This document shows positions 25,908 through 28,507 of a stretch of 35,753 nucleotides of DNA, one piece after another. Below the pieces are notes generated by a model. The model was not told the origin of the DNA and searched no databases. It saw nothing but the letters and a program-made list of their open reading frames with translations. A program made the position numbers and the translations under genes. Every line of letters begins with the position of its first letter. Positions within the stretch are counted from its first letter, which is position 1. The DNA is from a virus: IMG/VR virus record IMGVR_UViG_3300009537_000080, positions 1 through 35,753 of that record. One strand, given 5' to 3'.

Positions 25908-26174
25908 TTATTTAGATTTTTTCTTTTCTGCGACCTTTGGTTCTGTCGGTAGTTCTACCTTTGGTTCTGTCGGTAGTTCTACCTTTGGTTCTGTCGGTAG
26001 TTCTACCTTTGGTTCTGTCGGTAGTTCTACCTTGACAGGTTTTTCCAGTTTCTCTAATTGTGCCTCTAGTCTTGCTACGTCTGCTTCATACTTCTCTGGA
26101 AATTTCTCACGCCACTCTTTGACTGGCTCGCTTCCAAGGAAGTCTAATTGTCTTTTAATTTCTTGTTTGTCCAT
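25908..26174 (-). CDS. Small protein with PTEPKVEL repeats, 88 aa
   Basis: Residues 1-45 form a charged helical segment. The remainder is four copies of an 8-residue VELPTEPK unit ending in a basic AEKKKSK tail. The repeats would form an extended, Pro-rich spacer. It lies between the coat protein and the membrane-anchored protein and may be a head decoration or linker protein; no family is recognised. Confidence 0.55.
   Translation of the reverse strand: MDKQEIKRQLDFLGSEPVKEWREKFPEKYEADVARLEAQLEKLEKPVKVELPTEPKVELPTEPKVELPTEPKVELPTEPKVAEKKKSK
25933..26031. repeat. 24-bp tandem repeat, 4 exact copies
   Basis: The unit acctttggttctgtcggtag plus ttct recurs at 25933, 25957, 25981 and 26005, with a partial copy to 26031. 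It is in frame with the VELPTEPK repeats. Base-perfect copies imply recent slippage or expansion, and the copy number is probably variable. Confidence 0.9.
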
Positions 26175-26275: not shown

Positions 26276-27905
26276 TTAGACGAGAGTGATCGCTACAAGT
26301 AAGTTAGCTTTCTGTGTCCAAACCTTAGCTCCGATGTTAGCCCAAACTGATATTTCACGACCAGTCTTAAGGGTTACTTTCTTTTCGTCATACTGTATGC
26401 CCTTTGGAGCGGCATAAGTAGCTGCCATTTCTTTAATTCCGAATAGTCTCTTTCCGCTGTTTGTAGCTGACAATGTACCAATTGTAGCTGTTGCGAATAC
26501 TCCTGATCGAACTACATATACTTCTACACCACCGAACACACCAGCGAAGCCGTTGTTAAGTGTTGCATCAGCAAAGTTAAATCCGTTAGACATACCAGCT
26601 TGAATGAAGCCTGTTACATCTGTGTTTTCTACTACCAAGAACATACCTTTGTAAGCATCTGAGAATCCTGCAACTTTACCAGACAAATCACCTATGATTT
26701 GGTTGATGTTACCTGGAGTTGTGAATCCACCCGCTGGAGTTGAGTATGTTTGACCTGCGTTGTTGGTCATCAAGTTCACAACGTACTTGTCTGCCAATAG
26801 GGCAACTTCTGCTCCAAGGTCGGCAATCATTGAACCGAACAAGTCAGCTCGTGATAGTGTTTCTTCAAACTCGAATAGGTGTACACCAGCTGCGATTTGT
26901 TCTGATACTGTCAATTTGTCATCAGTAGTTGTAGCTGTTGATACTGTGTAAGTTCCTGCAATAGCTGCGGCTGTTGCTGTGATTGCTGTTAGATATGGGT
27001 TTGAGATGTATCTAGCACCTGATCTGTCTACACGACAAATCTTCTCTGCCACCAATGCTGTCTTTAATGATAGGTCAAGCATTGATTGAGCATATTTAAT
27101 ACGCCATACTTCCGATAAAGTTGACGTTCCAATTGTATTCCTTCTTGTTACCCTTTCGGGGGTTGGTCATTTCTGCCAACCTCTACAACTTCTTTATGAT
27201 TATATTGTAGAGCAGACTATCGCATCCTTTTTATTAAAGGTCTTCTCGTTTAGTCGTTCACGGTGGCTTACGCCTTCCGCCCTGTCGTCTGTCCCCAGAC
27301 TTCCAAGTCAATTAGAGAAGATTTTATATGGCCTTTTGTTTACCCCAAGTATCAGTTTTCCTGTGGCATTTCACACACAGTGTCCTGCCATTGTTTATGT
27401 TCCAAAGTTCCTCACAGAGATTAGCTTCATCAATTGTTTTTATTTTGTAGTCATTGACTATATCAATAAATCTTTTTGGAAAGTGGTCAGCATTTAGTTC
27501 TATACCCTTCTCCCCACAAAATACGCATGTGAAATTGTCTCTGGTGAAAATGTCCGAACGCCACTGGCGATACTTGAATAGTTCACGAATTGTTTTTAAA
27601 AAAGGTCTTTGTTTGTTCTCCCTCCAGCGTGGGTGGTCCTTGCCAACCTTGCCGAAATTAGTATTATTCTTACCTTTTGCCCAAGGAGCAGACTTGCCTG
27701 CATGAGGTGGTCTTTGTCCTTTCTTAAAAGAGGTTTTGTTAGCTCCATGAGTTCCTTTTGTCGCCTTGCTAACTTTCTCCCTTGTTTTTTCTGGCATAGG
27801 TATACCTTTATTCCAAGGTATTTGACCTTTTGCAAATGTCATAATGAAGTCTTTAGTACCTCTATTTTAACATTTAATTCGTGTTGTAACAAATTGTTAA
27901 GCCAT
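26276..27905 (-). CDS. Major capsid protein, two exons (27905-27900 and 27139-26276), 289 aa when spliced
   Basis: The protein is an HK97/P22-like coat: after splicing it begins M-A-NTIGTSTLSEVW, then KYAQSMLDLSLKTALVAEKI and a central LADKYVVNLMTNN..., ending VWTQKANLLVAITLV. The frame of exon 2 runs upstream past its first ATG (27082) through residues typical of coat N-termini until an in-frame stop, with no start codon. The start is instead found 760 bases away as ATG GCT at 27905-27900, immediately followed by TAA. Removal of the group I intron joins GCT to AAT in frame. The scaffold-like gene precedes it, as in other phages. Confidence 0.85.
27140..27899 (-). ncRNA. Group I intron in the major capsid gene, 760 nt
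   Basis: The 5' exon ends UAUGGCU and pairs perfectly with the internal guide GGCCAUA (27333-27327), giving the U-G pair required at the splice site. The catalytic core lies at 27320-27140: a GTCTG/CAGAC hairpin, P5 GGC-GUAA-GCC, P7 GACUA (27255-27251) with UAGUC (27219-27215), P8 CCTTT/AAAGG (27240-27226), and two P9 hairpins (GGTTGG/CCAACC, CCC/GGG). The intron ends in G at 27140, as group I introns do. The guide overlaps the last codons of the HNH gene, which therefore sits in the P1 loop. Confidence 0.87.
27324..27842 (-). CDS. HNH homing endonuclease with NUMOD3-type repeats, 172 aa
   Basis: Residues 1-80 contain repeated NUMOD3-type DNA-binding motifs (GQIPWNKG, KTSFKKGQRPPHAGK, GKVGKDHPRW). 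The C-terminal HNH domain shows CVFC (106-109), DH (119-120), an Asn-rich segment near 148-151 and CVKCH (156-160). These enzymes cut intronless alleles so that the intron is copied in by repair. The gene lies within the intron loop and has its own ATG without a Shine-Dalgarno site. Its last codons (AAG GCC ATA) double as the ribozyme guide sequence. Confidence 0.9.
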   Translation of the reverse strand: MTFAKGQIPWNKGIPMPEKTREKVSKATKGTHGANKTSFKKGQRPPHAGKSAPWAKGKNNTNFGKVGKDHPRWRENKQRPFLKTIRELFKYRQWRSDIFTRDNFTCVFCGEKGIELNADHFPKRFIDIVNDYKIKTIDEANLCEELWNINNGRTLCVKCHRKTDTWGKQKAI

Positions 27906-27964
27906 AGTTATTTCTTAAATGAATGATATCCCACCGAATATTCAAGAAATAATCCCACCGCTTA

Positions 27965-28507
27965 TTATTGAATTCTTTTAAGTCGTAGAGCCATATTTGC
28001 CTCAGCTAGTTTAACCGGGTCTACTTCTCGACCTTCGTTAGCTAATGACACTATTTGCTCATGCGACAAGCTGTTGTTGCTTCTCTTAGCCTTGCCTGTA
28101 TTTGTGGCTTCGGCTGTGTTTCGTTCTTCTGCTCTAGCCTTTAAGACGATTTGCATATATGGGTCTTTTTTCAGTTCTGATACTGCTTTGCCCCTTAGTT
28201 TGGCTTCGTCTAGTAGATAGTCCACATCTTCCTCATGGATATCTCGTAGAGCGACTATGTCTTTGACTGACATGCTTGAGTCAACACTCCTGGCTGGCTC
28301 TATTTTTGGTAGAGCTTTTAATCTTTTAAGCTCTTTTTCTGCCTTCTCGGCTCGAATCTTTTGATTTCTTGCCAACTCCTCTGCTTTTGTTAGCTTTTCA
28401 GCCACATCTTCGGTGTTGTTTTCATCAATCGACTCTTCTTGATGGTCTAAAGTGCCATCTACCTCTTCTAGATTTGAGTCCTCTAGCTGGACGGTTTCAT
28501 CTGTCAT
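27965..28507 (-). CDS. Putative scaffolding protein, 180 aa
   Basis: It has a strongly acidic N-terminus (about 1-40), a charged coiled coil (40-80) and a helical, basic C-terminal third (about 150-180), the usual build of podovirus scaffolds that guide procapsid assembly. It is directly upstream of the coat gene and downstream of the portal block. Sequence identity to a named family is not evident. Confidence 0.65.
   Translation of the reverse strand: MTDETVQLEDSNLEEVDGTLDHQEESIDENNTEDVAEKLTKAEELARNQKIRAEKAEKELKRLKALPKIEPARSVDSSMSVKDIVALRDIHEEDVDYLLDEAKLRGKAVSELKKDPYMQIVLKARAEERNTAEATNTGKAKRSNNSLSHEQIVSLANEGREVDPVKLAEANMALRLKRIQ

Follow-up and report, generated by a model that had tools for sequence, protein, structure and literature searches.

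The major capsid gene on the minus strand of a 35.7 kb viral record, analysed here over its whole length and referred to as the window, is interrupted between its second and third codons by what appears, from its sequence, to be a mobile, self-splicing group I intron. This element would carry an HNH homing endonuclease gene in the loop of its P1 helix, and its homing site would be the capsid start itself; we give this reading a probability of roughly 0.9. On the minus strand, ATG GCT (27905-27900) leads directly into TAA; the open frame that starts at 27139, with AATACAATTGG (AAT ACA ATT GGA), has no start codon. Exon 1, AACTATGGCT, has its last base at 27900 and, together with base 27906, forms the 5' strand of P1. 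The intervening intron runs from TAACAATTTG to AACAAGAAGG (27899-27140), and its removal restores the capsid frame.

Table 1. Features of the interrupted capsid gene and its intron (window positions)
Feature	Position	Strand	Basis
Stem-loop in capsid leader, just 5' of start codon	27908..27952	-	Hairpin predictions in relatives
Exon 1, major capsid gene: ATG GCT (Met-Ala)	27900..27905	-	Sequence and empty-site relatives
Group I intron, 760 nt, 5' UAAC, 3' terminal G (27140)	27140..27899	-	Empty sites, conserved core, U.G at 5' splice site
Probable sigma-70-type promoter of HNH gene, TTGTTA-17-TAAAAT, TG before -10	27864..27892	-	Consensus match only
HNH homing endonuclease gene, 172 aa, in P1 loop	27324..27842	-	PHROG HNH families, best E 6.8e-10
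Internal guide sequence GGCCAUA (3' strand of P1)	27327..27333	-	Exon pairing; fixed distance to P3
Catalytic core P3, P4, P5, P6, P7, P8	27213..27323	-	24-sequence alignment; model R1
P9, P9.1, P9.2 stems and lead-in to 3' splice site	27141..27212	-	Sequence; inner P9 pairs covary
Exon 2, major capsid gene, 287 codons plus stop	26276..27139	-	PHROG 267, weak AF2 model, purifying selection

The distribution of the intron is patchy. A capsid-alignment scan of viral contigs yielded 22 loci, and the intron is present in two of these, a near-identical pair, and absent from the other 20. Seventeen of the 20 intronless loci contain an unbroken ATG + GCN/TCN + AAYAC, among them L002, which is 81% identical to the window and reads ATG GCA AAT ACA ATT GGG. 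The insertion junction is thus set by intronless relatives, independently of any guide pairing, and comparison with L002 and the other empty sites places the terminal G of the intron. The original prediction of a 760-nt intron after codon 2 is confirmed by both the sequence and these relatives. No capsid relatives were found in genome_contigs, nor among cultured phages by protein search.

Four capsid relatives have no ATG start (L005 at 839, which equals L152; L155 at 3001; L157 at 3001; and L176, reverse strand, near 645), the start being replaced by ATC GCA, ATC GCT, ATT or ACG GCA. The residues that follow are conserved, as NTIGTSTL... in three and NTIIW in L176. These could be rare start codons or changes that protect against an endonuclease.

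Strong purifying selection acts on exon 2 starting with its first codon. Over codons 1-16, 11 comparisons with the window revealed 90 codon differences that are synonymous and 2 that are not; because nearly all are synonymous, this region appears to be translated, in a protein that would begin M-A-N-T-I-G-T. These data bear on the idea that the element is an HNH gene accompanied by a dead intron remnant, with the coat protein starting at the internal ATG 27082 and everything upstream untranslated. An open frame of 268 aa does run from 27082. However, NTIGTSTLSEVWRI, which lies upstream of that ATG, is almost invariant across 12 coat proteins, with changes that are synonymous, and aligned homologues lack a Met at the 27082 position. 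Moreover, both the window and a second phage, L003, retain intact guide pairing and an intact core, arguing against a dead remnant. The internal start was rejected on the conservation of the upstream residues, and we regard this explanation as exceedingly improbable.

The interrupted gene is, by its sequence relationships, an HK97-like major capsid gene. Seven of 11 capsid relatives matched PHROG 267, "major head protein", with a best E value among relatives of 8.8e-8. The AF2 model of the capsid is weak (pLDDT 48) and was used as support only; its best Foldseek matches are phage capsids of the HK97 fold. Elsewhere in the window, a gene at 26174-25908 contains a tandem repeat in which KVELPTEP is encoded several times (25940-26050), and a tRNA-Met (CAU) gene is located at 1515-1589 on the minus strand.

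The exon sequence UAUGGCU pairs with the guide GGCCAUA through seven contiguous pairs (U.G, C-G, G-C, G-C, U-A, A-U and U-A), so that the capsid AUG lies within the 5' strand of P1, as had been proposed. Among 200,000 random 7-mer pairs drawn from the region, 15 satisfied the same rule of an initial U.G and seven contiguous pairs. The corresponding helix in L003, AAUGGCU/GGUCAUU, differs by a single compensatory and a single wobble change. Where family members have a clear guide, it almost always starts 12 nt ahead of P3. Automatic 5' splice-site calls were unreliable for several family members (L086, L087, L092 and L098 types) and were left out. The U.G wobble at the 5' splice site and the terminal G at a junction confirmed by empty sites are both group I traits.

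An upstream sequence in the window, AUAUGGCU, pairs with the guide over 8 nt, scores above the true site and, with an exon end at 27989 (27989/27988), would create an in-frame fusion between the preceding gene and the capsid. L003, though, has GAGGCAAGAAGAGCT at this location and therefore lacks the cryptic site, and a single 8-mer match per kilobase is not very rare. Use of this alternative 5' splice site is accordingly very improbable, and it was rejected as not conserved in L003.

The intron contains a core with a P3/P7 pseudoknot and a P4-P6 domain. In an alignment of 24 introns, the named pairs form in 92.8% of cells and covariation is 0.367, compared to 0.04-0.10 for slid partners. The covarying stems are P3, P4, P5, P8 and P9. 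P7 (GACTA/TAGTC) and P6 are present but invariant in this set and give no covariation support, an invariance that is partly explained by the search pattern, which fixed P6, P6a and the 5' strand of P7. Model R1 scores the window core at 118 bits, the window being part of the R1 training set. Rfam group I models gave no match to the window at gathering or permissive thresholds; as the same search also misses the T4 nrdB and td introns, this negative carries no weight here. R1 in turn matches neither T4 nrdB nor td. Taken together, the guide helix, the empty sites and the covarying core support the earlier assignment, and on these sequence features the element is a group I intron. We infer guanosine-initiated self-splicing and homing from its membership in this family.

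The core was found in 50 viral contigs. Many of the family introns reside in head protein genes, several of them in major head proteins of PHROGs 9953, 283 and 1357; the family core also splits the P22-like coat gene in ctn9Y15 and the ribonucleotide reductase gene of Roseobacter phage CRP-118. The exact core pattern was absent from 84,980 bacterial and archaeal genomes, and hence no host can be named. In L118 (reverse strand, 2281 and 3259), two core copies lie ~1 kb apart, both adjoining capsid-type sequence.

The P1 loop is 566 nt in the window and L003, where it holds the HNH gene, compared to 8-19 nt in many family members. The encoded protein matches HNH families PHROG 589, 8446, 5956 and 119, and the motif CVFC...ADH...NNGRTLCVKCH can be recognised by eye. 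The earlier claim that the P1 loop harbours a homing endonuclease gene is supported. The gene is conserved under purifying selection (dN 0.21, dS 2.1 against L003). The stop codon of this gene (27326-27324) immediately follows the guide, which is thus part of the coding sequence at the 3' end; such overlap between a reading frame and the ribozyme core has been described for T4 introns (PMC3073962). In L090 and L106 a long P1 loop is instead filled by a GIY-YIG-type gene.

The HNH gene is probably expressed from its own promoter inside the intron, as judged by the consensus match in Table 1. L003 has a counterpart at the same place, TTGTTA-17-TATAAT with TG, and in the distant phage L008, TTGCTT-17-TATAAT precedes the HNH gene. 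A whole promoter scan found sites no more numerous than in shuffles. Own promoters also drive T4 intron endonucleases (PMC2988022).

Comparison of phages reveals several architectures at this one capsid site. L008 has the same junction and guide and an identical P1 that includes the AUG; its P1 loop is only 10 nt, and its HNH gene is located directly upstream of the start codon. In L175, the junction GCT|AATAC follows codon 4, the HNH gene lies in the P6 region, the P1 sequence differs and the AUG is outside P1. L176 carries a decayed HNH gene ahead of an intronless capsid gene. The window and L008 share 60% identity in HNH but just 24% in the capsid, and intron-bearing capsids do not form one clade, forcing at least 3 changes. 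That the HNH proteins are closer than the capsids and that no intron clade exists argue for horizontal movement. The architectures and the transfer pattern would fit such movement as well as a collaborative-homing route. The three positions of the endonuclease gene at one capsid site, next to the intron, within P1 and within P6, look like stages by which a mobile intron is assembled.

In the mechanism that we propose, the capsid pre-mRNA would be transcribed and P1 would form as the guide folds onto the exon, start codon included. Guanosine-initiated splicing would then join AUG-GCU to AAU-ACA to produce the M-A-N-T-I-G-T start, and a ribosome that initiates on unspliced RNA would encounter UAA after two codons. 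The HNH protein, probably made from the intron promoter, would nick or cut capsid genes that lack the intron, near their start codon, and repair of the cut gene would copy the intron in. The patchy distribution and horizontal transfer point to such cutting only indirectly.

The original prediction also held that the coat protein depends on splicing and that reading the unspliced AUG gives a dipeptide. Both statements agree with the sequence, as unspliced RNA lacks an intact coat reading frame and UAA follows two codons; it follows that any intact coat protein requires splicing. The further proposal, of a built-in control, is not supported in the form given. In its strongest form, an evolved switch, the location of the AUG in P1 would couple capsid translation to splicing, such that capsid would be made only once transcription and folding of the RNA are complete or when host conditions promote splicing. 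The AUG is indeed in P1 in two capsid lineages, that of the window and L003 and that of the far diverged L008, and a C. difficile c-di-GMP group I element is known to move a ribosome binding site (PMC3984707). By contrast, intronless relatives, one of them L002, manage without the intron, and L175 has its AUG outside P1 at the same junction. In addition, most group I introns have been described as having an in-frame stop just past the 5' splice site (PMC3073962), which makes this feature standard, and the length of P1 in the window is ordinary within the family. Finally, the AUG would remain paired with the leader in spliced RNA. Hairpins ahead of the start codon are predicted in most of 12 relatives, with z scores of -2 to -3.9 in ten, and the AUG is predicted to be paired in both spliced and unspliced RNA. 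In a secondary-structure ensemble, which leaves out tertiary contacts, the AUG is paired by the leader with a value of 0.88 versus 0.11 for the guide. We thus find an evolved switch improbable, and the start-codon position is best read as a by-product of where the endonuclease target lies rather than as a dedicated switch.

The leader stem-loops contain GGTGG motifs in the window (27908-27952) and in L002, L003, L139, L146, L150, L156 and L159, and the stem sequences vary among relatives with pairing retained. The capsid leader stem-loop is a possible cis-regulatory element.

Several known systems resemble the element in part. Mycobacteriophage LittleE likewise has a group I-type intron with a homing endonuclease frame in its major capsid gene, with U at the exon end and G at the intron end, and its splicing was demonstrated by RT-PCR and N-terminal sequencing; its endonuclease gene, however, is LAGLIDADG-like and on the opposite strand, and the intron lies within the gene, away from the start codon (PMC3706429). 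The T4 td, nrdB and nrdD introns share the group I class, homing endonucleases, own endonuclease promoters and overlap of reading frame and core (PMC2988022, PMC3073962), although I-TevI in T4 occupies the P6 loop and the window HNH gene occupies P1. In collaborative homing, described for T7-like phages, cyanophage psbA and phage ICP1 (PMC10448857, PMC2988022), the likeness lies with L008, whose HNH gene stands alone next to exon 1 and whose intron, at the same site, contains no ORF; in the window, by contrast, endonuclease gene and intron are joined. In the C. difficile c-di-GMP riboswitch/group I ribozyme, splicing also decides whether a start codon is usable, but there it places the ribosome binding site and is ligand-controlled (reviewed in PMC3984707). 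No riboswitch aptamer was found in the window by Rfam.

The kind of intron is thus known, and its position at a start codon is unusual; a literature search of open-licence papers turned up no report of a phage intron so near a start codon. In T4, introns are spliced more readily if exon 1 is being translated (PMC2988022, PMC3073962). In the window, unlike in T4, exon 1 is only two codons long, so a ribosome that initiates at the start codon would occupy P1 and cover the 5' splice site, in conflict with splicing. Splicing may therefore compete with translation initiation, the ribosome at the AUG blocking splicing, the reverse of T4, and P1 blocking the ribosome, a tentative proposal that we consider possible but unlikely. 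If true, capsid output would be set by splicing kinetics or ribosome supply. More broadly, the analysis exposes a viral family of group I introns, many in capsid genes, that Rfam misses. The T4-derived ribosome-as-chaperone model does not accommodate so short an exon 1, and the capsid intron would therefore provide a natural test of how ribosome and ribozyme share one RNA.
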